Origin: Deroplatys truncata
Lineage: Eukaryota; Arthropoda; Insecta; Mantodea; Mantidae
Assembly (NCBI GenBank): GCA_030765065.1
Contig: CM060985.1
Location: 176,268,096 to 176,332,095, forward strand
Reading direction: 5' to 3'
Length of the DNA: 64,000 bases
A program made the position numbers and the translations under genes. Below are positions 12,768 through 60,529 of this stretch, piece by piece (position 1 is the first letter of the stretch; each line of letters begins with the position of its first letter). The notes beneath the pieces were generated by a model. The model did not search any database, was not told where the DNA came from, and saw only the letters and a program-made list of their open reading frames with translations.

Positions 12768-12965
12768 TGATGTGTTACACTCACATGACTTTCTCTACTC
12801 TTGTAAAAACTATTTTTACAAACGCTTATTCTCCATATGCTTCAGGTTAATCGAGATGTTAATCTTATTGCTAATTTTCTTGTAGTTGCAAGGGGAATTG
12901 GTAGGCTTTAAGCGATAGCCAAATATTCTAAGAGCTGGTTGCTATGTGGAGTATTTTGCTCTTTT
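12768..12965 (+). repeat. A/B repeat, module A, truncated
   Basis: Starts TCTGATGTGTTACACTCACA and runs through GGTAGGCTTTAAGCGATAGC to GAGCTGGTTGCTATGTGGAG, then loses similarity. Confidence 0.75.
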
Positions 12966-16640: not shown

Positions 16641-17277
16641 CTTTCAGGAAATAGCTACATTACACATTTCGTTATAGATACAAAGAGAACAGCGATAGTC
16701 AAATGTTTAACAACTGGACGCTATATGCTGGCCTTAAAATTCCATACTGTTTCCATGACATCGCGGGAAACAACTAATGTTAAAAGGACTTTGAAAAAAT
16801 GACTAGCTATTGAACATTTTCAATAAATAATAACCGATATCTCGGAAATAGTTTACGTCAAAACAAAGGTTATTTGAAATAAATGTATTTTAAAAAGATC
16901 TATATTTTTTGTGTAGTACATTTTCGTCTAATGCTTAACGTTTACCGTTATACAAGATTATATAAATCTTTTGAACAAAGAGAACTTTAGAGGCTTTTCC
17001 CAATGAATTGAAGGTGTGCATTTAATTTTTCATATAAATATTTTTAATATCTGGTATCTTAATCTAAAAGGTTGGAGTAATTTTTCAGAGCATCACAAAT
17101 TTTGAAAAAACATTTTATGTAATGTGTAGTTTAGGGTGGAGAAATTAACTCGAAAATCTTGGTGTCATACACTTGGAAGGTGCTAAACGTCTATACCAAG
17201 TTTGGCATTTATCCGATTTTTGAGTTATACTGTTGAGATACAGACAAACTTTGGGATAGTTTCCTAAAAATCTCGTT
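16641..17277 (+). repeat. A/B repeat, A2 plus B2
   Basis: Plus-strand subfamily copy lacking the outer end of A2. The conserved A2 block AGTCAAATGTTTAACAACTG..ATGCTGGCCTTAAAATTCC is present (about 16695-16770). B2 runs to a GATACAGACAAACTTTGGGA remnant where the next unit starts. Confidence 0.72.
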
Positions 17278-20103: not shown

Positions 20104-21880
20104 CTTCGATCAACACTTTTCAAAGAAAAGATTTGGAAAATGTTGAGTTACTAAACAATGGCTCTAACGATATTGATTAAAATATTATATATTAAATATA
20201 TATACATGAAAAATGAAATTATATCTTGAATTTTCTCGGAATAGCCTTTAAAGTCCTCTTCATTCGGAAGGAAATTTCTATAATGTTGTATAACTGGTAA
20301 ACTTTAAGCGATACAGAAAACATACTACACAAGAAATGTATACCTTATTAAACCACGCAATTTATTTCAGGTAACCTTCTTGTAGCATCAGTCATTTCCG
20401 AGATATTCTACTTTCTCTAGTGCGGAGAGTAAGTAGGGGAAGTATTGCATAATATCCAAAAATTCGATACCGGTACCTTACTGGAAATACATGTTTTAAG
20501 GCCCCTGAATAGAAATATCATTTTTAGAAAAAGGTCCATGTATGTCTCTGCGAACAGCAAAATTCAAAAACGAAAACACAGACTAATACCAAACTCGGTA
20601 TTTATGTTCGGTATCTTTCAAAGATGCACCAGACTACACTCTACATGAAACATTTTTAGAAAATTTTGATTTCTCAACAATGGCTCTAACGATTTTGAAT
20701 AAAATAACGCATGTTTAAGATATTTTCATTGCAAATGAAATGCATATCTTGAATTTTCTGGGAATGCCTCCAAAAGTATTCTGATTTATTTTTTTATAAT
20801 TGGTAAATCGTAAGAGATAGACAAAATTTGCTACACAAAAATATACATATTGTTAAAACACACATATGTAATTTTTTTTGTCCTGTGAACCATTTCCGAG
20901 ATATTGCTTGTTATTTGTTTGAATTTTCTCAAATGGGAATTCATTATTCGTTTTTTGCTTTCTCTACTACATATAGTAAGTAGGGGAAGTATTGTATTCC
21001 ACCCAAAAATTCGATACCAAGATTTCACGGGAAATACATGTTTTGAGGCCCCCTGAATCCAAAAATTATTTTTGGAAACATGTCCTTGTGTGTGTGTGTG
21101 TCTGTCTGTGAGTAGCATAACTCAGAAACGAACAGTCGGATAAACACGAAACTTGGTATTTAGGTTTAGTATCTTCCAGACATGCGACACGAAGGTTTTC
21201 AAGAAAATCCCCCCACCCCAGATTACCTTTTACATGGAACATTTTTCGAAAACCTCAATTTTCTCAAAATGGCTCTATCGATTTTGATTAAAATATCATA
21301 TGTTTAAGATATTTTCATGACAAAGGAATTGTATATCTCGAATTTTCTGGGAATGTCTCCAAAAGTATTCCTCATTATGAACGACTTATGCATAACTGGT
21401 AAACCATAAGAGATAGACAAAATTTTACAAACAAAAAATGTAGATCGCGTTAAAATACACAATTTATGTCATATACTTTTTTGTACAGTGAACCATTTTC
21501 GAGATATTGCTTTTTATTCCCTTAAATTTTCCAATTCTTATACTTTTCTCAAATTCGTTATTCATTTTTTTGTCCTGGTAATGCAAAGAGAATGGAATAC
21601 TCCACATGGCAACCAGCTCTTAAAATATTTGACTATCGCTTAAAGCCTACCAATTCCCCTTGCATCTACAAGAAAATCAGTAATAAGATTGAAATCTTGA
21701 TTAACATGAAGCATATGGAGAATAAGCTTTTGTAAAGATAGTTTGTACAAGAATAGAGAAAGTCTATGAGTGTAACACATCGGATTTTTTTAAGAAAATT
21801 ACCCCACCGCAAATATCCTTTGCTATAACAATTTTTCATTATTTTTGTAGTTTTAAAAAATGGCTCTAACGGAAATATTT
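20104..21880 (-). repeat. Run of A/B repeats in one orientation
   Basis: Successive minus-strand units: a B2 piece (20104-20408), a B module (20409-20952), a complete B+A unit (20953-21786) and a B fragment (21787-21880). Each junction falls where a unit ends in TTTCTCTAC-type sequence, or where ATTCATTATTCG meets TTTTTTGCTTTCTC. A GT microsatellite lies at about 21088-21112. Confidence 0.8.
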
Positions 21881-26009: not shown

Positions 26010-26277
26010 ATAAATTAAATTGTGTTATACTTATGGATGCTCTTTAAATGCTGTGGTCCTTAGCGTCCCAATCTATATTGGACGTGAAATACCGGTAGTT
26101 TTTCTCAGAGGCCTCAGGCATGAGGTTCTTTTACGTGCCGTAAATGTACGACACGGGACCACCGACTTTACTTCCCTTCCGAAGGAAACCATGCTAAGTA
26201 TCTTCACGCCGAAAAATCCATCGCCTTCCGTCGGGAACTAGAGGCCTGCATGGTAACCACTAAACCAAGGAGGACGA
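26010..26277 (-). mobile_element. tRNA-derived SINE with 15-bp target duplication
   Basis: Inserted in a B2 module. The duplication CATTTTTAGAAAAAA is seen at 25995-26009 and 26278-26292. On the minus strand the element starts TCGTCCTCCTTGGTTTAGTG GTTACCATGC, a good tRNA-like box A, and ends in A/T-rich sequence (ACACAATTTAATTTA). It contains ACGTGCCGTAAATGTACGAC on the plus strand. An exact long duplication and an A-rich tail show LINE-assisted retrotransposition. Confidence 0.85.
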
Positions 26278-26754
26278 CATTTTTAGAAAAAAGTTCACGT
26301 TTGTGTGCCTGTGACCAGCATAAATCAAAAACGAAAATTGGAATAAATATCAAACTTATTATTTAGCTTCAGTACATTTAAAGAATGCGGGCGATGATTT
26401 TCAATAATATCCCGCCATCCCAAACTAACGTTAACATACAACATTTTTCGAAGCTTTTGATTTTCTAAAAATGGCTTTAACGATTTTGATTAAAATACAA
26501 TATATTAAATATATTTAAATGAAAAATATAACGTATAACTTGAATTATCTGGGAATAGCCTGTAAAGCCCAGTTGAAGAAATTTTGTATAAACTTGTACA
26601 ACTACTAAACATTAAGCGATAGACGAAAACGTACTATACAAAACATGTAGATATCTTTAAAACACACAATTTACTTCAAATAAATTGTTTTGTGGCGTAA
26701 GTCATTTCAGAGATACCCATTACTAATGTTTCGAATTGTTCAATCCTTTCAGCA

Positions 26755-26929
26755 TTCAGTTGTTTCTCGCGATGTCATGGAAGCAGTATGGAATTTTAAG
26801 GCCAGCATATAGCGTCCAGTTGTTAAACATTTGACTATCGATTTTCAGTTGTTTCTCGCGATGTCATGGAAACAGTATGGAATTTTAAGGCCAGCATATA
26901 GCGTCCAGTTGTTAAACATTTGACTATCG
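26755..26929 (-). repeat. 86-bp tandem duplication of the A2 core
   Basis: Two copies offset by 89 bp. Both run from TTCAGTTGTTTCTCGCGATG to AACATTTGACTATCG and differ only at AAGCAG versus AAACAG. The low divergence implies a recent duplication or conversion. Confidence 0.9.
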
Positions 26930-27074
26930 CTGTTCTCTTTGTATCTATAACGAAATGTGTAATGTTGCTGTTTCTGTAAGGGTTTATTTGGATTAAAATG
27001 TGGTAGATAGAAAAATAAGCTTGAGTAAAAATAGTTTTTATACCCAGTAATAAATTATAGTGAATGTAAATCAG

Positions 27075-28600: not shown

Positions 28601-28912
28601 TAAAGGCAAAATTGTTCGGAGGAAAACTCTGAAGTGCAACATTCGCATGACCTTCTCTACCCTCTATCGTTTATTAGTGAGCACACAAATTATTCTTGCG
28701 AAAGATTTTTTTCTATCCATTGCATTTTAATCCAAATAAACCTTTACAAAAACAGTTACATTACACATTTCGTTATAGATACAAAGAGAACAGCGATAGT
28801 CAAATGTTTAACAACTGGGCACTATAAGCTTAAATTACCTTAAAATTCCATATTGTTTCCATGCAATCGCGAGAAGCAACTGATAATTCACAGGACTAAA
28901 AGAATGGCTATG

Positions 28913-33202: not shown

Positions 33203-33380
33203 CTTTCTCTATTTACTATTGTTTACTATTTAATCACCTACGTATTAGGTAAGAGAAAGTATTGCATTCCTCCAAAAAGTACGATATCGAGATTCCACGA
33301 AATACATGTTTTGAGGGCCATGAATCCAAAAAAAGTTCTGCGTGTGTGTGAAGAGCATAATTCAACAACGAATTCTGATG
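33203..33380 (-). repeat. A/B repeat fragment (B end)
   Basis: Palindromic B end and adjacent sequence (GCATTCCTCCAAAAAGTACG..ATACATGTTTTGAGG..GTGTGTGTGAAGAGCATAA) following the start of an A module. It abuts a plus-strand A2 unit. Confidence 0.65.
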
Positions 33381-33532
33381 TGTTACATTCACATGACTTT
33401 ATGCACTCCTATCGTTTATTAGTGCGTATAAAATTATTCTTACGAAAGTGTATTTTCCTATCTACTGAATTTTAATCGAGATAAACCTTTTAGGTAATAG
33501 CTACATTACACATTTAGTTATACAGAGTGAGC

Positions 33533-34560
33533 CCAAAGACTCCGAATCGCCTGCGCGGTGTTTTTCCTTTCCGCGTCCTCGGCGCTCGTAGCCGTCTGCC
33601 GCTATCATAGAAAGGTGCGGATGAAACCATACAACATTTTTAGAACTACTTTTAAAGGCTTTACTTACCAACTTTACGAAAGGAGATGCTGAAACTGGCC
33701 ACCCTCGTTGTCCATAGATTTTTGGCACCAAAGAGGAAACTATCCATCACTCGCCGTAGTTTACGTTGAGAAATTTCCAGGCGGATATTTTGTTTTAATT
33801 CTTCCAGGGTGTGTGGGTTTGTCATGTACACTGTATGTTTTAAGTTACCGCGGAGGGGTATTTTATGAGCAATACCGGTTGCGCGATGTTTCTCCACTGG
33901 GCGCGTGGAAACGTGATAACGCGCTGCTATAAACAAAGTCACGCTGCTGTGGTTTTGCTGTGCAGTGTGAAGTGCAGTTTTGAGTTGACGGTGATGTGAT
34001 ATAGTTCAATTATTACGAGTTATTTATTATTTTGTCCTGTACTTAGACACAAAGTATATTATGGCTCAATATATGTTTTCTACTGCACAGTGTGTATTTA
34101 TTTATGATGCGTATGTGTTAACTCGATCAGCTCGCCAAGTGAAGGTACGATTTGCAGATAGATTTCCAGGTGTAAAAGTTCCAGACCGTACAACAATCCA
34201 TGAACTTTACAGTAAATTTCAGCCAACAGGAAGTGTTCAGGCTAAGAAATCTAAAAGACGGCGTTCGCTTCTTACAGAAGAAACATTAGGCGACATCGGT
34301 CATCGTTTGGAAAATTCCCCTAAAAAATTCCATGATGGATAGTTTCCTAAAGAGGTGCCAAAAATGTATGGACAACGATGGTGGCCAGTTTCAGGATTTC
34401 CTTTCATAAAGTTGGCAAGTAAAGCCTTTAAAAATAGTTTTAAAAATGTTGTATGGTTTTATCCGTGCCTTTTTATGACAGAAGCAGACGGCAACGAGCG
34501 CCGAGGACGCGGAAAGGAAAAACACCGCACAGGTGGTTCGGAGTCTTTTGGCTCACTCTG
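33533..34560 (+). mobile_element. Internally deleted Tc1/mariner element with ~220-bp TIRs
   Basis: A 1.03-kb element flanked by TA. Inverted repeats span about 33533-33750 and 34333-34560: CAGAGTGAGCCCAAAGACTC at the left, and the inverse of CAGAGTGAGCCAAAAGACTC at the right. They share GTGTTTTTCCTTTCCGCGTC. The centre keeps only the transposase N-terminus. Confidence 0.9.
34061..34342 (+). pseudogene. Transposase N-terminal domain, catalytic part deleted
   Basis: A 93-codon frame: MAQYMFSTAQCVFIYDAYVL, then ARQVKVRFADRFPGVKVPDR and TIHELYSKFQPTGSV. This is a helix-turn-helix typical of long-TIR Tc1/mariner transposases. After LLTEETLGDIGHRLENSP it runs directly into the right inverted repeat and stops. 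All catalytic residues are absent. A peptide that can bind the element's ends but not cut is conceivable; that is inference. Confidence 0.78.
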
Positions 34561-35192
34561 TAGATACAAATGTAACAGCGATAGTCAAATGTTTAAGAAC
34601 TGGACGATATATACTGGCCTTAAAATTCAATACTGTTTCCATGACATCGCGAGAAACAACTGAAACTCAACAGGAATTTAACAAAATGGCTAAATATTGA
34701 ACAATTGAACCATTACTAACGTATATCTCGGAAATGGCAGATGCCACAAAAAGGTTATTGAAATAAATTACATGTTTTAAAGAGATCTATATTTTTTGTG
34801 TAGTACGTTTACGTCATCCAGTTATACAAGGTTATACAAAACTCCTTCCAAATGAAGAGGAATTTCCAGGTTATTGCCAGAAAATTCAAGATGTAATTCA
34901 TTTGTCGTGTATGTATCTTTAATATACGGTATTCTAATCAAATTCGTTGGAACAATTTTTTTAGAAAGTCAAAAATTTTGAACAATCTTCCATGTAAAGT
35001 GTAGTTTGTGTGGGGGGTTTCTTTAACATCTTTGTGGCGAATCTTTAAAAGGTACTGAACTACCAAATTTGGAGTTTAAAGACGCACCTTTTTTCTATTT
35101 TTTATTTTTGGATTCAGGAGGCCTCAAAACATGTATTTTCGTGAAATTCAGTAACGTCTCTTCCTATTATGTATGTGGCAGGGAAGGTAAAA

Positions 35193-36905: not shown

Positions 36906-38026
36906 AATTTGATGCGTTACTCTCACATAACCTTCTCTACCCTCTGTTGTTTATTAGTGGCTATACAAACTATTCTTACGAAACTTTATTTTCTATCTAG
37001 TTCATTTTAATCCAAATAAATCTTTACAGAAACAGCTACATTGCATATTTCGTTATAGTTACAAAGAGAATAGTGATAGTCAAATACTTAAGAACTGAAC
37101 GCTATATGCTGGCCATAAAATGCCATCCTTTCTTTTTGTTCTATTTTATTTTACGTCGCTTTAACTCTCTGGCCATTTCGCGACGGATCTGTTGGTGGAT
37201 AACTCTTAGAAGGATATGTGATGGACAATTAGCCTTCTAGTTCTCATCCCTGTAACCACCTGCTTCATGGCGTGCGGATAGCATTAGAGTGCCGTCCAAT
37301 CCAACGGCCGCTCCCATATAAAAGCGGACAGTTAGTCTTCTAGGTCTCATCCCTGTAATCACCCGATTCATGCCGTGCGAATGGCACTAGGGTGCTGTCC
37401 AGTCCAACCGCTGCCCTCACACAGAAAGGCGAACGGTTAACCTTCTAGATCTCATCCCTGGAAATGCCATCTTGCTTCGTCACGTGCCCACAAACACCCC
37501 CAGGACATGGCAGCCGGATGTTCTTCTTCGTGCCGTGCAGATGGTGTTAGGGTGACGTCCAGTCTAACTGCTTACATTGTCTGTAGATAGCTGGCATTGC
37601 ATTCGCTATTACCACTTAGTTTTCGTTTTTACTATTGTTTCAGACTTAAGGTGGAACTTTGGGACGTGGTATTAAATATCCAATCCGGTATTTACCTTGG
37701 CGACTAAGGGAAACCACGAAAAGGCCTCAGATAGATTGATCGGCCCACGGGATTTGAACCCATAATATTCCGAGAAGAAGGTGAAAATCAGCAGAGCTTG
37801 AAAAGAATAAGAGCAATTAACAATTCCAACTATTAATAATGGATATCGGAAATGGCATATGCCACAAAAAAGTCATTTCAAGTAAATTTGGTTCTTTAAG
37901 GAGCTCTACATATTTTTGTAGTACGTTTTAGTATATCACTTATCGTTTACCAGTTATATAAGACTATACAAAATTCCTTCAGAACCAAGGAAGGCTATTC
38001 CCAGAAAATTCAACATGTAGTTTTAT
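36906..38026 (+). repeat. A/B repeat, A2 plus B2, split by a long SINE
   Basis: The A2 piece (36906-37139) begins TTTGATGCGTTACTCTCACA. The B2 piece (about 37800-38026) covers AATGGATATCGGAAATGGCA to CCAGAAAATTCAACATGTAG. The distal half of B2 is missing; an opposite-orientation B end starts at 38027. Confidence 0.7.
37140..37795 (-). mobile_element. Long composite SINE with internal tandem repeats
   Basis: On the minus strand: box B-like GGGTTCAAATCCCGTGGGCC, core CGTGGTTTCCCTTAGTCGCC-AAGGTAAATACCGG, then three uneven copies of a 115-165-bp unit (with GGACGTCACCCTAACACCATC-like and GGGATGAGA..CTAGAAGG sequence), then a tail AGTTAAAGCGACGTAAAATA followed by an A-rich end. The same architecture recurs on the plus strand at 52300-53600. 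Confidence 0.68.
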
Positions 38027-38982: not shown

Positions 38983-39343
38983 TTTAAGCGATAGTCAAAT
39001 GTTTTAAGAGCTGGTTGCTATGTGGAGTATTCCATTCTCTTTGTATGTCCAGGACAAAAAAAATAACGAATTCCCATTTGAGAAAGAAAATAAGTACTGA
39101 AAAATTCAAACAGATAACAAGCAATATCTCGAAAATTGTTCACGTTGATAAAAAAAATGTATTCGACATAAGTTGTGTATTATAAAATTCTGTGTATCTT
39201 TTACGCTTTACCACTTATAGAAAAGTCATGAAGACCTTTGGGAAAATTGTTAGACAATTAAAGATATAATTTTATTTGCCATGAAAAGATCTTAAACATA
39301 TGATATTTTAATCAAAATCGTTAAAACCATTTTTGGAAAAACG

Positions 39344-40223
39344 TGAAGGGACATGTACGGCACAAAAGTGTACAGGCCGACCTCGTGACATGGACCGCCG
39401 ACATTTGAAGAGGGTCGTAAAGAGTAATAGGCAGACATCTATGCAGACCATCACATGGAAATTCCAAACTGCATCAGGATCCACTCCAAGTACTATGACA
39501 GTTAGGTTTGAGGTAACAAATCTTGGATTCCATGGTCGAGCGGCTGCTCATAAGCCACACATCACGCAGGAAAATGCCAAACGACGCCTCGCTTGGTGTA
39601 GGGAGCTTCAACATTACACGAATGAACAGTGGCAAAACGTTGTGTGGAGTGACGCATCACGGTACACAATGTGGCGATCCGATGGTAGGGTGTGGGTATG
39701 GCGAATGCCCGGTGAACGTCATCTGCCAGCGTGTGTAGTGCCAACCGTCAAATTCGGAGGTGGTGGTGGTATGGTGTGGTCGTGTTTTACCTGGAGGGGG
39801 CTTGCACCCCTTGTTGTTTTGCGTGGCACGATCACAGCGCAGACCTACATTGATATTTTAAGCACCTTCTTGCTTCCCACTGTTGAAGAGCAATTCGGGG
39901 ATGGCGATTGCATCTTTCAACACGATCGAACACCTGTTCATACTGCACGGGCTGTGGCGGAGTGGTTACACGACAATAACATCCCTGTAATGGACTGGCC
40001 TGCACAGAGTCCTGACTTGAATCCTATAGAACACCTTTGGGATGTTTTGGAACGCCGACTTCCTGCCAGGCCGCACCGACCTACATCAGTACCTCTCCTC
40101 AGTTCCGCTCTCCGTGAAGAATGTGCTGCCATTCCCCAAGAAACCTTCCAGCATCTGATTGAAAGTATGCCTGCGAGAGTGAACGCTGTCAACAAGACTA
40201 TGAGTGGGCCAACACTATATTGA
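39344..40223 (+). pseudogene. Tc1-like transposase, open catalytic region
   Basis: An uninterrupted frame of about 290 codons beginning inside the gene (KREGTCTAQKCTGRPR). It contains RHLKRVVKSNRQTSM, the first aspartate in VVWSDASRYTMW, GRVWVWRMPGERH, the second aspartate in IFQHDRTPVH, and the glutamate in SPDLNPIEHLWDVL. Exactly 34 residues separate the last two. It ends ARVNAVNKTMSGPTLY-stop. The usual WSDESR glutamate is alanine, but the catalytic triad is complete. The two N-terminal DNA-binding helices are deleted, so it should not transpose by itself. Confidence 0.88.
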
Positions 40224-42664: not shown

Positions 42665-42905
42665 AACTTCTTTAAAAAGCGGATGTGCTGCATTTCTCTA
42701 CTTATTCTTCAACGAAATATTTTTACAAAGCCTTATACTTCTATCTACGTCACATTAATACAGATAAACATTTCCAGAAATGACTTTATTGTATATTTCC
42801 TTGTAGATACAATGGGAATAAGGGAATATAGTAGCCTTGAGTGATAGTCAAATTTTTAAGAGCTCTTTGCTATCTGATGGCTTTGATGTTCCTTTCCCTT
42901 CTCTC
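42665..42905 (+). repeat. A/B repeat, diverged module A variant
   Basis: Resembles module A in order (GGATGTGCTGCATTTCTCTA, TTTTTACAAAGCCTTATACT, CTTGTAGATACAATGGGAAT, AGTGATAGTCAAATTTTTAA) but is clearly diverged. Confidence 0.6.
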
Positions 42906-42949
42906 TTTTATTTTTTGTTCAAGTAAAGCTAGTATAAAAATCTGATGTG

Positions 42950-45398
42950 ATACACTCACATGACTATCTTTAATTTTGTACAAACTATTTTTACAAACCT
43001 TATTCTCCATATGCTTCATGATAATCGAGATGTTAATCTTATTGCTAATTTTCTTGTAGATGCAAGGGGAATTGGAAGGCTTTAAGCGATAGTCAAATAT
43101 TTTAAGAGCTGGTTGCTACGTGGAGTATTGCATTCTCTTTGTATGTACAGGGCATAAAACAACGAATAACCAATTCCAATTTGAGAAAAACTATAAGTAT
43201 TGGAACATTCAAACAAATTACAAGGAATATCTCGGAAATGGTTCAGTTGACAAAACAAAATGTATATGGCATAATTAGTGCTTTAACGAGCTCTACATTT
43301 GTTGTCTAGAAAACTTTTGCCTATATCTTAGGGATTGCCAGTTATGCAAAACCTATTAAGAAAAACACTTTTGCGGGCATTCACAGAACATTCTAGCTAT
43401 ACATTTCATTTGTCATGAAAATACCTTAAACACATCATATTTTAAGAGCCATTTTGAGAAAAACAAAACTATTCAAAAATGTTCCTTATAAAGGTTACTC
43501 TGGTTAAGGGAGATTTTTGTTTAAAACCTTTGTGTAGCATCTTTAAAAGATACTGAACATAAATACGAGGTAATATTTTATATCATAACATGCTGTGAAT
43601 GCCGAAGTGATTGTATTGTATGTACAGGATTTTAGATGTTTGTTAGCCATAAATATTGTTAGGAAATAAGTTTGCACGGCCTAACTGAATCTGACAATAC
43701 ACGTGGGTAACAATAAACCGAGGGGGTGAGTTGTTTATCAATAAGAAGAGACAAACAAATGACGTAGGGTAGCGTGCCTTATTTTTAGAAATGGAGGGAA
43801 TATCTTCCCTAGAGTATATATGTTAGTAGTAGTGATTGGCTGACCAAAACAGACGCTAAAGTGGGCGCGATTTGGTAACCAATAGTAGCTCTATTATAAA
43901 GTTTAGGCAATTCGAGGTGGAGGAGTATATATTCTCGAGCCATAAGCAAGTGTCGCACAGTTCTGAAGAATCTCTCACGAGGTGCACGTCGCAGAGTTAG
44001 TTACAAAAAATGTAAAGTACGCGAAGTAATTGGTGCGCGGCAACTAAAACGACTGTATTTACATTCAGAAATATCACAGTTTCAGTCAGGCGTGTATAAA
44101 GATTAAATATGTCAATTATTAATTAAGTGTGAAGGCAATAAAAGTATAGAAACAAAATTTTTTATCAGTGTTATATTTTTGCAACAACTCCTTTCCGTCT
44201 ACACGTCCTGCTTAGAGATACTTGCTCGACTGAGTTATAATAGCTAGCCGGAGGACAAAGAACCCAAATTTTAAAACATAACAAAACAATAAGCGCCTAA
44301 CAAATAAGATAACACGAGCCATGAGAACTGCGACAAGTTTTGCCTATCTCTTAGAGGTTACCAGTTATGCAAATGCCATTAAGAAAAAATCTTTTGGGGG
44401 CATTCGCATAAAAATTCTAGCTATACATTTCATTTGTCATGAAAATATCTTAATCACATGATATTTTAAGAGCCAGTTTTTAGAAAAACAAAATTATCCA
44501 AAAATGTTCCTTATAAAGGTTAGTCTGGTTAAGGGAGATTTTTGTTGAAAACCTTTGTGTAGCATCTTTAAAAGGTACTGAACCTAAATATCAAGTTTGG
44601 TATCTATCCGATCTTTCGTTTTTGCGTTATGCTGTTCACTGACACAGACACACACACGTACTTTTTTCTAAAGAGGCTTTTTAAAATTCAGGGAGGCTCA
44701 AAACCGATGAAATCTCGATCAAAGTTTTGGGTTGAATACAATACTTCTCCTACTTACTCTACGAGTAAAGAAAGTAAAAAACGAATACGAATTCCCATTT
44801 GAGGAAAAGTATAATTATTGCAAAATTCAAAAAAATAAAAAGGAATATTCCGGCAATGGGTCACTCGACAAAAATGTCTATGATAAATTTTGTTTTAACG
44901 CGATCTATATTTTTTGTGTAGTAAGATTTCGTCTGTCTCTATTGGTTTACCAGTTATGCTAAATTCATTCAGAATGAAGAGGACTTTTGGGCACATTCCC
45001 AGAAAATTCAAGATATACATTTGTTTTTTATGAAAATATCTTAAATATATGATATTTTAATAAAAATCTTTGGAGCCATTTATGAGAAAATAAAAATTTT
45101 CGAAAAATTTGTATGTAAAGGGTAATCTGGGGTGGCAGGATTTTGTTGAAAATCTTGGTGTCGTATCTCTGGAAGATACTGAACCTAAATAGCAAGTTTG
45201 GTGTTTATCCGACTGTTCCTTTATGAGTTATGCTGTTCACAGTCTCACAGACAGATACACATGTACCTTTTTCTAAAGATGCTTTTTTTATTCTGGGGGC
45301 CTCAGGGCATACTTTTCCTGTGAAATCTTGGTATCGAATTTTTGGGTGGAATGCAATATTTCTCCTTCTTGCTATAGGTATAAGAGAAATTAAAGTAG
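42950..45398 (+). repeat. A/B repeat cluster: A+B, LTR insertion, B, B
   Basis: The first unit starts CTGATGTGATACACTCACAT and breaks off at 43565 at an LTR. After the LTR a B segment starts again at 44336, repeating 253-255 bp already present before the LTR. It continues to its palindromic end near 44775. A further B module follows (44782-45398), joined through GTAAAAAACGAATACGAATT. Confidence 0.78.
43566..44335 (+). repeat. Solo LTR, family beta, copy 1
   Basis: About 770 bp. It begins CGAGGTAATATTTTATATCA (TG changed to CG) and ends ..GAGAACTGCGACA. TATAAA at 43895-43900 and AATAAA at 44137-44142 fit a promoter and polyadenylation signal. The flanks lack a target duplication (AATA before, AGTT after). 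Instead a 253-bp direct duplication of the host repeat surrounds it. Confidence 0.75.
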
Positions 45399-55426: not shown

Positions 55427-55965
55427 TTGTCAAGTCTTGAACAAAAGTTTGATCGTGTACAAGGGGCTTTACGCCCTATAACAAAAATAAACGCCTTTCC
55501 TGGGCAAAACAACACAGGATTTGGACATCTGAAGGGTGGAAAAAGGTCCTGTTTAAATATGAAAGTTACTTCCAGTTGTTTTATTCCAAACGTTGGACAT
55601 TTGTTTGTCGCCGTGCAGGGGAGCGTATGCTTTCTCAGTGCACCAACCCAACTATCAAGCATGGAAGAGTTGCTGGTTGGTTTGGGGGTGTTTCGGTGTG
55701 GCTCTGTTGGAGAACTCTCCTCCACACCAAGTGGAACTCGTCTAATAGGGATGTGGTTTATCTTACAGCAGGACAACGACCCCAAACACACATCACTATA
55801 TCACAAGAAGTATCTCGAACATTAGGAGAAGCAAAATGCTTTAAAAGACATGATTTGGCCACCTCAGAGTCCAGACTACAATCTCGTTGAGTTGTTATGG
55901 GATCATCTGGACCGCGCAGTTCCTCAAGTGCGAATTATAAGTAAATCTCATGTGTGAGATGTGTT
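55427..55965 (+). pseudogene. Tc1-like transposase catalytic region, pseudogene
   Basis: Fragments in alternating frames: KRWTFVCRRAGERMLSQCTN, then ILQQDNDPKHTSLYHKKYLE with the second catalytic aspartate, then after a stop KDMIWPPQSPDYNLVELLWD with the glutamate, 38 residues further. The DNA-binding half and the ends are not recognised. The spacing suggests a Tc1-like group distinct from the DD34E copies. Confidence 0.75.
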
Positions 55966-55973
55966 ACAAGAAA

Positions 55974-56697
55974 AACTGATGTGTTACACTCACATGACTT
56001 TTTCTACTCTTGTACAAACTATTTTTACAAACCCTTATACTCCATATGCTTCATGTTAATCGAGATGTTAATCTTATTGCTAATTTTCTTGTAGATGCAA
56101 GGGGAATTGGTAGGCTTTAAGCGATAGTCAAATATTTTAAGAGCTGGTTGCTATGTGGAGTATTCCATTCTCTTTGTATTACCAGGACAAAAAATGAATA
56201 ACTAATTCCCATTTGAAAAAAGTATAAGTATTGGAAAACTTAAGGGAATAACAACCAATATCTCGAAAATAGTTCACTCAACAACAACAACAAATGTATA
56301 TGACATAAATTGTGTATTTTAACGCGATCTACAATTCTTGTGTAATAAAAGTTTGTCTATCTCTTATGGTTTACCAGTTATGCAAAGTCGTTCTCAACGA
56401 AGAACACTTTTGGAGACATTCCCAGAAAATTCGAGATATACATTTTATTTCTCATAAAGTATCTTAAATATATGATATTTTAATCAAAATCGTTAGAGCC
56501 ATTTTCGAGAATATTAAAATTTTCGAAAAATGTTCCTCGTAAAGGGTAATCTAAGATGGGGGGATTTTCTTGAAAACCTTCGTGTCGCATCTGTGGAAGA
56601 TACTGAACCTAAATAACAAGTTTGGTGTTTATCCGACTGTTCGTTTCTGAGTTCTGCTGTTCACAGACACACAGACACACACACACGGACATTTCCA
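55974..56697 (+). repeat. A/B repeat, A plus B truncated in the microsatellite
   Basis: Starts CTGATGTGTTACACTCACAT. Module B breaks off just after ACACACACACGGACATTTCC, and another A module follows immediately. Confidence 0.8.
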
Positions 56698-57203
56698 AAA
56701 CTGTGATGTGTTACACTCACATGACTTTCTCTACTCTTGTACAAACTATTTTTACAAACGCTTATTCTCCATATGCTTCATGTTAATTGGGATGTTAATC
56801 TTATTGCTAATTTTCTTGTAGATGCAAGCGGAATATGGTAGGTTTTAAGCGATAGTCAAGTCTTTTAAGCGCTGGTTGCTATGTGGCGATTTCTATCCTG
56901 TTTGCATTACCAGGATATAAAAAAATCTGATGTGTTACACTCACATGACTTTCTCTACTCTTGTACAAACTATTCTTACAAACGCTTATTCTCCATATGC
57001 TTCATGTTAATCGAGATAAACATTTGCAGAATCTATCTTATTGCTAATTTTCTTGTAGATGTAAGGGGAATGTATATTTACAAGGGCAATATGGAAAAAC
57101 AGTAGCCTTTAAGCACATGCATATCTCTTAATAGCTGGTTGCTAGGTGCAGCACCATTCCCTTTCCCACAGATTAATACTCTTTGCATATCCAAGACAAA
57201 AAA
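56698..57203 (+). repeat. Two consecutive A modules
   Basis: A module 56700-56927, ending GCATTACCAGGATATAAAAAAA, is joined directly to a second A module 56928-57203 starting TCTGATGTGTTACACTCACA. The second is a variant with an inserted segment (ATTTGCAGAATCTATC) and CACAGATTAATACTC. Confidence 0.82.
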
Positions 57204-58580
57204 ATGAATAACGAATTCCCATTTGAGAAAAGTATTGAAAAATTTAAGGGAATAACAAGCAATATCTCGAAAATGGTTCACTCAACAAAAAAAAGTATAT
57301 AACATAAATTGTGTATTTTAACGCGATCTACATTTTTTGTGTAGTAAAATTTTGTCTATCTCTTATGGTTTACGAGTTATGCAAAAGTCGTTCACAATAA
57401 AGAATACTTTTGGAGACATTCCCAGGAAATTCAAGATATACATTTTATTTGTCATAAAAATATCTTAAACATATGATATTTTAATCAAAATCGTTAGAGC
57501 CATTTTTGAGAAAATTAAAATTTTCGAAAAATCTTCCATGTAAAGGGTAGTCTGGGGTGGGGGGATTTTCTTGAAAACCTTCGTGTCGCATAGCTGGAAG
57601 ATACTGAACCTAAATACCAAGTTTGGTGCTTATCCGACTGTTCGTTTTTGAGTTATGCTGTTCACAGACACACAGACACACACACAGACACACACACACA
57701 GACACACACACACACACACAGACACACACACGGACATGTTTCCAAAAATGCTTTTTTTGGATTCAGGAGGTCTCAAAACATGTATTTACGGTGAAATCTC
57801 GGTAACGAATTTTTGGGTGGAATGCAATACTTCCCCTACTTACTATACGTAGTAGAGAAAGTAAAAAATGAATAACCAACTTGAGAAAAAGTAAGTATTG
57901 GAAAACTTAAGGGAATAACAAGCAATATCTCAAAAATGGTTCACTCAACAAAAAAATGTATATGTCATAAATTGTGTACTTTTATGCGATCTACATTTTT
58001 TGTGTAGTAAACGTTTGTCTATCTCTTACGGTTTACCAGTTATGCAAAAGTCGTTCACAATGAAGAATACGTTTGGAGACATTCCTAGAAAATTCTAGAT
58101 ACACATTTTATTTTTCATGAAAGTATGTTAAATATATGATATTTTAATCAAAATCGTTAGAGCCATTTTTGAGAAAATTAAAATTTTCGAAAAATGTTCC
58201 ATGTAAAGGCTAATCTGGAGTGGGGGGATTTTCTTGAAAACCTATGTGTCACATCTCTGGAAGATACTGAAACTAAATACCAAGTTTGGTGTTTATCCGA
58301 CTGTTCGTTTCTGAGTTATGCTGTTCACAGACACACACACAGACACACATACGGACATGTTTCCAAAAATTTTTTTTGGATCCAGGGGGTCTCAAAACAT
58401 GTATTTCCGGTGGAATCTCGGTATCGAAATTTTGGGTGGAATAAAATACTTCCCGTACTTACTATACGTATTAGAGAAAGTAAAAATGCCTTTTTTGCAT
58501 TGAAGAGGCCTCAAAACATATATTTCGGTGAAATCTCGCTATCGAATTTTTGGGTGCCATACAATACTTCCCCTACTTTT
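57204..58580 (+). repeat. Two full B modules and a B end in tandem
   Basis: B modules 57204-57870 and 57871-58487, plus a B end 58488-58580. Each full module ends TACGTAGTAGAGAAAGTAAA or TACGTATTAGAGAAAGTAAA, then runs straight on. The CA microsatellite is long (57664-57730). Confidence 0.85.
57664..57731 (+). repeat. CA microsatellite within module B
   Basis: Interrupted (CA)n of about 68 bp made of ACAGACACACACACA-type units. Equivalent, shorter tracts occur at about 56660-56690, 58325-58352, 59320-59362 and 62357-62393. Confidence 0.9.
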
Positions 58581-58628
58581 TTTTTCAATTTTATATGTAT
58601 GTATATAGTGCGGTGATTATAAAAAAAT

Positions 58629-59497
58629 CTGATGTGTTACACTCACATGACTTTCTCTACTCTTGTACAATCTATTTTTACAAACGCCTATTCTCCATAT
58701 GCTTCATGTTAATGGAGATATCGAGATGTCAATCTTATTGATAATTTTCTTGTAGATGCAAGGGGAATATGGTAGGTTTTAAGCGATAGTCAAATATTTT
58801 AACGCTGGTTGCTATGTGGCGCATTCCATTCTCTTTGCATGTCCAGGACATAAAAAAATGAATAACGAATTTGTGAAAAAGTATAAGTATTGGAAAATTT
58901 AAGGGAATAACAAGCAATATCTCGAAAACGGTTCACTCAACAAAATAAATGTATATGACATAAATTGTGTATTTTAACGCGATCTACATTTTTTGTGCAG
59001 TAAAATTTTGTCTATCTCTTATGGTTTACCAGTTATGCAAAAGTCGTTCACAATGAAGAATACTTTTGGAGACATTCCCAGAAAATTCGAGATATAAATT
59101 TCATTTGTCATGAAATTATCTTAAACATATGATAATTTCATCAAAATCGTTAGAGCCATTTTTGAGAAAATTAAAATTTTCGAAAAATCTTCCATGTAAA
59201 GGGTACTCTGGGGTGGGGGGATTTTCTTGAAAACCTTCGTGTCGCATCTCTGGAAGATACTGAATCTAAATACCAAGTTTGGTGTTTATCCGACTGTTCG
59301 TTTTTGAGTTATGCTGTTCACAGACACACAGACACACAGACACACACACAGACACACACACGGACATGTTTCCAAAAATGCTTTTTTTGGATTCAGGGGG
59401 TCTCAAAACGTGTATTTCCGGTGAAATCTCGGTATCGAATTTTTGGGTGGAATGCAATACTTCCCCTACTTACTATACGTAGTAGAGAAAGTAAAAA
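58629..59497 (+). repeat. A/B repeat, complete A plus B copy
   Basis: About 870 bp from TCTGATGTGTTACACTCACA to TACGTAGTAGAGAAAGTAAAAA. The best plus-strand reference copy, with A joined to B through GGACATAAAAAAATGAATAA. Confidence 0.88.
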
Positions 59498-59972
59498 TTG
59501 TTGTTTTCTGGTTGATACTCAAGTCACGTATACAGACCAGGTATTTTTCTAGAGAGCATGTACGGTCTTATGACCCATGTGACTGTGTTATGCAATTAAT
59601 GTAATACTAAATACTTAATAAATACCACCACCACTACTACTATTACTTACTATACGTACTACAGAAAGTAAAAAATGGCATCAAATCAATGCGGATATTC
59701 TACATAACTAGATAAATAGATCGTCTAGAATATGTGCTGCAGGGATAAAAACTCGGGGAGGGTATTTTGAGGAGAGAAATGTTTATAGTATGATCCTACA
59801 GTGTAATTGTTTTGCTTTGAATTGTATTTATTGGGCAATAATAAACATGTTTATGTGGAACAAAACAGCTAGTTTCATTCACCTTCCCTTTAACCGTGAT
59901 TATAATTCATTTATTGAAATTAATGAACGGTAGTGTAATTATTTAGAGAACATTTCTCCTAAATCTTGTGTT
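59498..59972. other. Unassigned, with an isolated B-module terminus
   Basis: Mostly unrecognised. At 59643-59675 the B end (TTACTTACTATACGTACTAC..AGAAAGTAAAAA) stands alone. It is preceded by a short ACC/ACT trinucleotide stretch (59624-59642). Confidence 0.55.
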
Positions 59973-60529
59973 TGTAACGGTTCTGCTTTGTGGGACCCCA
60001 CTACATTGATGATAGATGCTGTATTACTTACCTGTAGATCGTCTTGATGCCCGTACTCTCGTGACGTATCTCGACGTTCTCGCAGACTGGAATCTGATGA
60101 TCGTGTATCTGTATTCTTGCGTTGTAAAGTATATTGTAATTATTATTTTATAAGTGTGCCACGGCTGCTGAATTTGTGTCGGAGAGCACTTGTGTCGGTC
60201 AGGGTTGGGTGTGGAGAAGGTTAAAATATATTCCGCACATTTAGTCTGTTAATTATTCCACTTGTATTTTAGATACGCCCATATGATATTCACAATTCAC
60301 TATCACCTTTGTTATGTTAAAATATGTATAACTGGTAGACTTTATATGCGTAGTTTCAGCGTCTATTTAGAGACGAGTTTATACACGGCCTTCCTGCTCG
60401 AACACTAACAAGCTGCTGTTAGCGTTCCCTTCAACTGTTCTTCTTAACGTACCTATTTGAATTACGGGCATGTATCAAAGTACGTGATTGGTGCTACTAT
60501 TCAATAACGTCCAATAACAGTTTGTTACA
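59973..60529 (-). repeat. Possible solo LTR of a third type
   Basis: 557 bp bounded by TGTAAC (59973) and GTTACA (60529), the classical LTR-type ends. On the minus strand it holds CCAAT-like ATTGG near the start, TATAAA (about 60370) and ATAAAATAATAA further on. No target duplication is visible. The flanking bases also pair (TGTGTTTGTAAC versus TGTGTGTGTAAC), so a small TIR element is the alternative. Confidence 0.35.

Follow-up and report, generated by a model that had tools for sequence, protein, structure and literature searches.

A self-nesting non-coding repeat family in the mantis Deroplatys truncata with probable affinity to non-autonomous Helentrons

Non-autonomous Helentrons of the DINE-1/HINE kind follow a common plan that comprises subterminal inverted repeats (subTIRs) of 12–15 bp, an inverted repeat (IR) near the 5′ subTIR, a microsatellite, and a 3′ stem-loop, as set out in the cited parts of three reports (PMC4067079, PMC2374699, PMC7492417). 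HINEs are described as inserting into TT or T-rich targets without target duplication and with varying boundary Ts. The IR of DINE-1 stands 3–22 bp from the 5′ subTIR, whereas the mite HINEs treated in the same account have no such IR (PMC4067079). Canonical Helitrons (Helitron1) are characterized there by a CTRR 3′ end. Self-insertion and nesting of Helitron-type elements have already been described (PMC5148889, PMC12628747), as have tandem clusters (PMC4067079). We analyzed a window of 64 000 nucleotides from the mantis Deroplatys truncata (GCA_030765065.1, contig CM060985.1, positions 176,268,096 to 176,332,095 of the forward strand); "the window" denotes this whole stretch, and all counts are limited to it. 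Two sequence modules, A and B, follow one another there in several orders, among them the array that runs from 55974 onward. We find that A and B belong to one element, which is likely a non-autonomous Helentron (a HINE of the DINE-1 kind) that nests in its own A-runs, and which probably represents a new HINE family.

A and B as one element

Copies were collected with an A-B composite profile of 849 columns (A, columns 1–222; B, columns 217–847), built from 12 hand-picked pieces in which A and B were kept together. The profile search (nhmmer) recovered 47 pieces totalling 18 242 bp, or 28% of the window, 31 of them on the plus strand. Starts were as well kept as ends, with 18 pieces beginning at column ≤7 and 18 reaching column ≥840. 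The edges of profile matches may drift a few bases inside A-runs.

A and B most likely constitute a single non-coding element of ~850 bp, and within the window this unity is directly visible, because 17 of the 47 pieces cross the A/B junction (columns 205–235) unbroken and all four pieces that start at the B boundary (columns 217–219) directly adjoin the tail of another copy. The junction-crossing pieces include low-scoring, diverged ones (16660–17273, 26205–26843, and 34544–35159). Only two pieces end near the A boundary: the end at column 222 adjoins the start of another copy, and piece 26863–27040 ends at column 209, with a piece that begins at column 146 lying 19 nt beyond it.

The original prediction had read the same region as separately mobile or freely recombining A and B modules, or as template switching at A-runs. 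Its observations are accurate in large part. The module order A, B, A, A, B, B, partial B, A, B in a single orientation is correct, and the quoted joints were recovered near 58858 (GGACATAAAAAAA/TGAATAACG), 56925 (AGGATATAAAAAAA/TCTGATG), and 57867 (GAAAGTAAAAAA/TGAATAACC). The claim that the modules meet in every combination holds for A-A, B-B, and A-B; the step from "partial B" to A in this region is not a direct joint, as 49 nt of unrelated sequence intervene (58578 to 58628). The only same-orientation B-A neighbors within 12 nt of each other are on the minus strand (26006–25880 and 25871–25542, 8-nt gap).

The presence of A-A, B-B, A-B, and near-adjacent B-A neighbors speaks for independent modules, and a sure second A is lacking in three of four B-B cases. 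Nevertheless, none of the 47 pieces was seen to be a lone A or lone B with precise ends between unrelated flanks, as independent mobility was predicted to leave. Four A-bearing pieces end early in diverged sequence (at 12965, 28821, 37112, and 42889), and by eye none is a solo A with precise ends: beyond 28821 an A-like end is recognizable further on, beyond 42889 the sequence is diverged as far as the following copy, and the pieces ending at 37112 and 12965 give way to other sequence. Breaks also fall within B (columns 318, 604, and 730–732) and not at the A/B boundary alone, and the break and resume coordinates of the two outer copies described below match each other. As far as this 64-kb window can show, free recombination or modularity of A and B is therefore not supported, and we regard separate mobility or template-switch shuffling as highly improbable.

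Three pieces (28628–28821, 36910–37112, and 26863–27040) form a diverged A-half subfamily with its own variant sequence. The subTIR is partly altered in 28628–28821 and 36910–37112, the members whose ends are seen.

A closed nest at A-runs

Read in order from 55976, the profile columns run 3–730, 3–222, 2–847, 217–847, and 725–821. The array is a bracket-closing nest in which a copy X (3–730 … 725–821) encloses a copy Y (3–222 … 217–847) and Y encloses a copy Z (2–847), with a further copy, V, beside them (Table 1). X breaks off at column 730 and is taken up again at 725; for Y the corresponding columns are 222 and 217. By chance, a resume point would fall within 6 columns of its break in ~1.5% of cases each, and both would do so with a probability of ~2e-4. 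One A-B element landing in the central A-run of a second leaves just this A-A-B-B order, together with break and resume columns that match. Once the inserts are taken out, Y aligns over columns 4–846 and X, including its last fragment, over columns 3–846. The joined X scores 898.7 bits with this fragment and 887.7 bits (columns 3–821) without it; the profile includes pieces of X, Y, Z, and V, and these scores are partly circular, whereas the break and resume coordinates were not chosen by the analyst. The stretch thus reaches beyond 59497, to the end of the outermost copy at 59674.

Table 1. Parts of the nest, copy V, and terminal features. For the copies, strand gives the A-to-B direction; HINE 5′-to-3′ runs on the opposite strand
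Feature	Position	Strand	Remarks
Copy X (outermost), first part	55976..56702	+	Columns 3–730; broken in internal A-run 725–729; nhmmer
Copy Y, first part (second A of the original prediction)	56703..56925	+	Columns 3–222; broken in central A7 run
Copy Z (innermost), complete	56926..57867	+	Columns 2–847; expanded CA microsatellite
Copy Z, matched pieces	56926..57690, 57707..57867	+	Split at CA microsatellite 57663–57731; nhmmer, Tandem Repeats Finder
Copy Y, resumed	57863..58486	+	Columns 217–847
Copy X, resumed ("partial B" of the original prediction)	58482..58578	+	Columns 725–821
Unrelated sequence ending in A7 run, landing site of V	58579..58627		Best other window match E 0.085
Copy V, complete (last A and B of the original prediction)	58628..59497	+	Columns 2–847; 965 bits
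Unrelated sequence, microsatellite-like tail next to TTACTT	59498..59631		Probably the rest of the element that holds V and interrupts X
Copy X, last fragment with subTIR and A tail	59632..59674	+	BLAST E 2e-6; X spans 55976–59674
3′ subTIR of V, AGTAGAGAAAGT	58650..58661	-	Sequence as on the minus strand
3′ subTIR of Z	56948..56959	-	
3′ subTIR of Y	56724..56735	-	
3′ subTIR of X	55997..56008	-	1 mismatch
5′ subTIR of V	59481..59492	-	12-bp inverted partner of 58650..58661
5′ subTIR of Z	57851..57862	-	
5′ subTIR of Y	58470..58481	-	1 mismatch
5′ subTIR of X	59658..59669	-	2 mismatches
Candidate 3′ terminal stem-loop of V	58632..58648	-	5-bp stem, 7-nt loop; weak

X, Y, Z, and V are 79–89% identical to one another (gaps counted). 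Mismatches to the consensus number 45 in X (without its last fragment), 49 in Y, 35 in Z, and 21 in V, weak evidence, given a consensus built partly from these copies, that Z is somewhat younger than the copies enclosing it. The two unrelated segments flanking V are probably one further inserted element, the host of V, which interrupts X: X breaks at ...CCTACTT, and ACTTACTATACG follows on the far side. No second copy of this host sequence was found in the window beyond weak matches. Its right-hand segment ends in AATACTAAATACTTAATAAATACCACCACCACTACTACTATT and resembles the 3′ end of a long or short interspersed element (LINE or SINE) with a microsatellite tail.

The placement of copies follows A-runs beyond this nest. 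AAAA occurs within the 14–19 bases upstream of 15 of the 18 intact A starts, compared with 9.6% of 15-nt background windows (binomial 3.5e-13; test and background windows differ slightly in length). The original prediction correctly placed the joints at A-runs and linked them to mobilization. Seven same-orientation neighbors have a start following another copy, and the first copies end at columns 732, 604, 318, 847, 730, 730, and 222. Every one of these columns lies inside a consensus A-run of four or more or no further than 3 columns from one. At six places the tail of a copy is followed by a copy entering at a later column (219, 285, 217, 217, 217, and 725), five of them inside an A-run, the exception being column 285 (cluster 21872–20114). 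Because an A-run target is strand-specific, it leads to nesting in the same orientation; opposite-orientation neighbors are also present (33227/33374 and 37818/38022).

Rolling-circle tandem synthesis with end bypass, in which an array arises from one transposition event, is described for Helitrons (PMC4067079), and the B-B(-A) arrays are reminiscent of the Fusarium elements in which multiple 5′ termini accompany a single 3′ terminus (PMC5148889). As the explanation of the arrays as a whole it is nonetheless quite unlikely. Bypass would yield A-B-A-B or B-B-A, not A-A-B-B with complementary coordinates; it gives no account of the re-entry into B at column 725; and the divergence among X, Y, Z, and V bears no sign of one recent product. 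For X, Y, and Z we rejected it on the order and on the degree of likeness of the copies. It is possible for the A-B-B clusters at 21784–20408 and 7885–6637, which contain no second A.

Element ends and probable mobilization

In the HINE orientation, the B end would be the 5′ end and the A start the 3′ end, so that the copies of the nest would lie on the minus strand. Read this way, the 5′ end carries a short T string followed directly by the subTIR ACTTTCTCTACT. A hand count of 19 listed B ends gave T strings of 4–6 in 11, 1–3 in 7, and one unreadable end; boundary Ts are likewise ambiguous in the published HINEs treated in PMC4067079. An inverted repeat, AGTAGGGGAAGT, lies 10 nt from the 5′ subTIR and folds back on it into a hairpin (z −3.58; equally good folds in 2 of 200 shuffles), and a GT/CTGT-type microsatellite lies further inside (Tandem Repeats Finder). 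The 3′ subTIR, AGTAGAGAAAGT, is the exact 12-bp inverted partner of the 5′ one, with 12 of 12 positions identical in the consensus (columns 24–35 and 831–842), a length reached in 2 of 5000 first-order resamples of the ends. It lies 23 columns inside the element, and past it come a small candidate stem-loop (89.9% of 79 cells paired, 17 sequences) and then a T-run. The element is most likely a HINE: its subTIRs, IR hairpin, microsatellite, and T-run preference match the published features of DINE-1 and other HINEs, and a weak candidate for the stem-loop is present.

Several observations weigh against this assignment. The candidate 3′ stem is short (5 bp), has 0 compensatory changes among the 17 sequences, and folds no better than shuffles (z −0.73; 45 of 200 at least as good). 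Three of the 18 starts (12766, 33374, and 36910) have no AAAA upstream, and 2 of 7 copies have 6–7 nt matches (ATAAAA, ATAAAAC) on both sides, which A-rich flanks give easily. Cluster 21872–20114 fails to close: the host piece ends at column 604, and the last piece covers columns 285–572, column 285 being outside an A-run. The outer A is missing or doubtful in three of the four B-B cases. Finally, no Rep, Helicase, or endonuclease domain was found in the 28 open reading frames (ORFs) scanned against Pfam among the 39 of at least 110 aa in the window; the above-cut-off matches were of transposase or helix-turn-helix type.

The principal alternative is an A-tailed retroelement derived from a SINE or LINE, inserting by target-primed reverse transcription at A-runs with the nick on the T strand. 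Landing in older copies, at their tails or internal A-runs, it would likewise produce nests of one orientation, A-runs of 4–6 at 11 of 19 B ends (hand count) together with the A-run targeting fit it, and the two copies with 6–7 nt flanking matches could be explained as carrying target duplications. Yet the readable A tails are only 1–6 long (18 of 19 ends), starts are kept as well as ends, and neither the exact 12-bp inverted termini nor the 5′ hairpin is explained. At the self-nested sites, the longest flank match is A-only for Z (AAAAAA) and 4 nt for Y. ARAGORN found no tRNA gene and Rfam no family at gathering score in the window; from 55500 to 60500 Rfam gave two weak sub-threshold matches, and Pol III A and B boxes alone were not searched for. 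A retroelement is thus the less favored origin and an unlikely one.

Canonical Helitrons begin with TC, bear a hairpin at the 3′ end, and insert between A and T. A canonical Helitron, or a cut-and-paste miniature inverted-repeat transposable element (MITE), would share the non-coding character and the inverted repeats, and in several copies the A start reads TC and follows an A. However, no CTRR end was found in either orientation, the targets are A/T runs rather than AT, and the repeats are subterminal and asymmetric, where a MITE would be expected to have terminal repeats and a fixed duplication. We consider this origin very unlikely. Penelope-like elements and retrozymes carry a hammerhead ribozyme in terminal repeats. 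No hammerhead match was found at Rfam gathering score in the window, nor up to E 1 in 55500–60500.

Searches outside the window yielded little. A protein search with the chance ORF in B returned nothing scoring (3 candidates). Exact motif scans of viral and genome contigs and a distant blastn comparison with phages found nothing in collections that are not animal genomes. A literature search with four 12- to 15-mers of the ends gave six papers, none on a transposable element to judge by the titles, a result that does not establish the family as undescribed, and nothing on point appeared among the best 20 of 2,543 records on Helitrons in named insect groups.

If the element is a HINE, we infer that it is mobilized by the rolling-circle mechanism of a Helentron, and the origin of the A-B-B order can be reconstructed in the same conditional terms. 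New copies would insert into T-runs (A-runs on the strand shown). The body of the element is itself rich in such target runs, chiefly the A7 that separates A from B and an A5 near column 727, and new copies would therefore tend to land inside old ones in the same orientation. Insertion of A-B into the central run of A-B would give A-A-B-B, and insertion near column 727 a split B. Orders with two B and fewer A would be derivatives, produced by deletion between the adjacent direct repeats of a nest or, alternatively, by rolling-circle transfer that sets out from the outer 5′ end of the nest and stops at the 3′ end it reaches first. Transfer of this kind has been proposed to explain the Helitron2 elements of Fusarium that carry several 5′ termini but only one 3′ terminus (PMC5148889). 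The A-B-B clusters introduced above can arise from a nest by either route. The cluster at 44335–45394 is possibly what is left of a second nest (outer A, 42680–42940; outer B, 44776–45394); its halves diverge unequally (~68% and ~81% identity), and we do not count it as demonstrated.

More speculatively, the A7 run might act as a built-in landing pad through which self-insertion yields A-B-B composites that move as units. We think this improbable at present, but if true, the family would multiply partly as nested composites, and nesting at this one internal site would belong to its normal life cycle and not be a chance by-product of T-run targeting. Independently of this, an apparent shuffling system becomes a readable insertion history, written by a probable HINE family that accounts for more than a quarter of the window. 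Through self-nesting at internal T-runs, a dispersed element could in a simple way give rise to A-A-B-B and A-B-B arrays resembling modular or satellite-like repeats, and the nests supply ready-made empty sites for settling the number of boundary Ts in a Helentron.

Other transposon sequences share the window. An A-B copy (33374–33496 and 34544–35159; columns 2–109, then 99–790) is apparently split by ~1 kb of sequence containing the relic of a helix-turn-helix ORF of transposon kind, with a DUF4817 match at 33995–34342. A long, uninterrupted Tc1-type transposase ORF at 39312–40223 measures 303 aa from stop to stop and has HTH_Tnp_Tc3_2 and DDE_3 domains. It is 58% identical to a protein of the spider Araneus and 55% identical to one of the fish Cyprinodon; the named hits among the best 120 of 1700 matches include spiders and fishes.

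Comparison with described Helentrons and Helitrons

The following comparisons concern the portions of the published accounts cited with each. FoHeli Helitron2 elements of Fusarium oxysporum parallel the A-B-B clusters in their self-insertion, their nests, and their several 5′ termini with one 3′ terminus; unlike here, encoded transposases are known there, and termini and target are different (PMC5148889). Cg_HINE of the Pacific oyster is similar in plan: it has a subTIR, IR, and microsatellite on the left and a subTIR and palindrome on the right, and inserts into T-rich sequence without target duplication. Its center differs, with satellite-like arrays in the oyster (PMC7492417); Tandem Repeats Finder detected only the microsatellite, and no central repeats of ~50–500 bp, in 55900–59750 of our window.

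HINE-Mo of the mite Metaseiulus occidentalis resembles the present element in its subTIRs of 12–15 bp, the 5′ one lying 2–4 nt from the end, in a 5–10 bp palindrome after the 3′ subTIR, for which there is a candidate stem-loop here, and in its T-rich targets with varying boundary Ts. The mite subTIRs are themselves palindromic, without a separate IR (PMC4067079), and the 3′ subTIR lies 38–60 nt from the end in HINE-Mo versus ~23 nt here.

DINE-1/INE-1 of Drosophila differs in the sequence of the subTIR (ATACCCGTTACTC in D. melanogaster DINE-1, ACTTTCTCTACT here; PMC2374699), in a 3′ stem of 7–11 nt compared with 5 bp, and in possessing central repeats of ~50–500 bp. In both, subTIRs of 12–13 bp are placed asymmetrically, with the 5′ one close to the very end and the 3′ one further inside; an IR stands beside the 5′ subTIR, a microsatellite lies in the 5′ block, and a stem-loop, a candidate one here, lies outside the 3′ subTIR. 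Both are non-coding and insert at T-runs (PMC2374699, PMC4067079).

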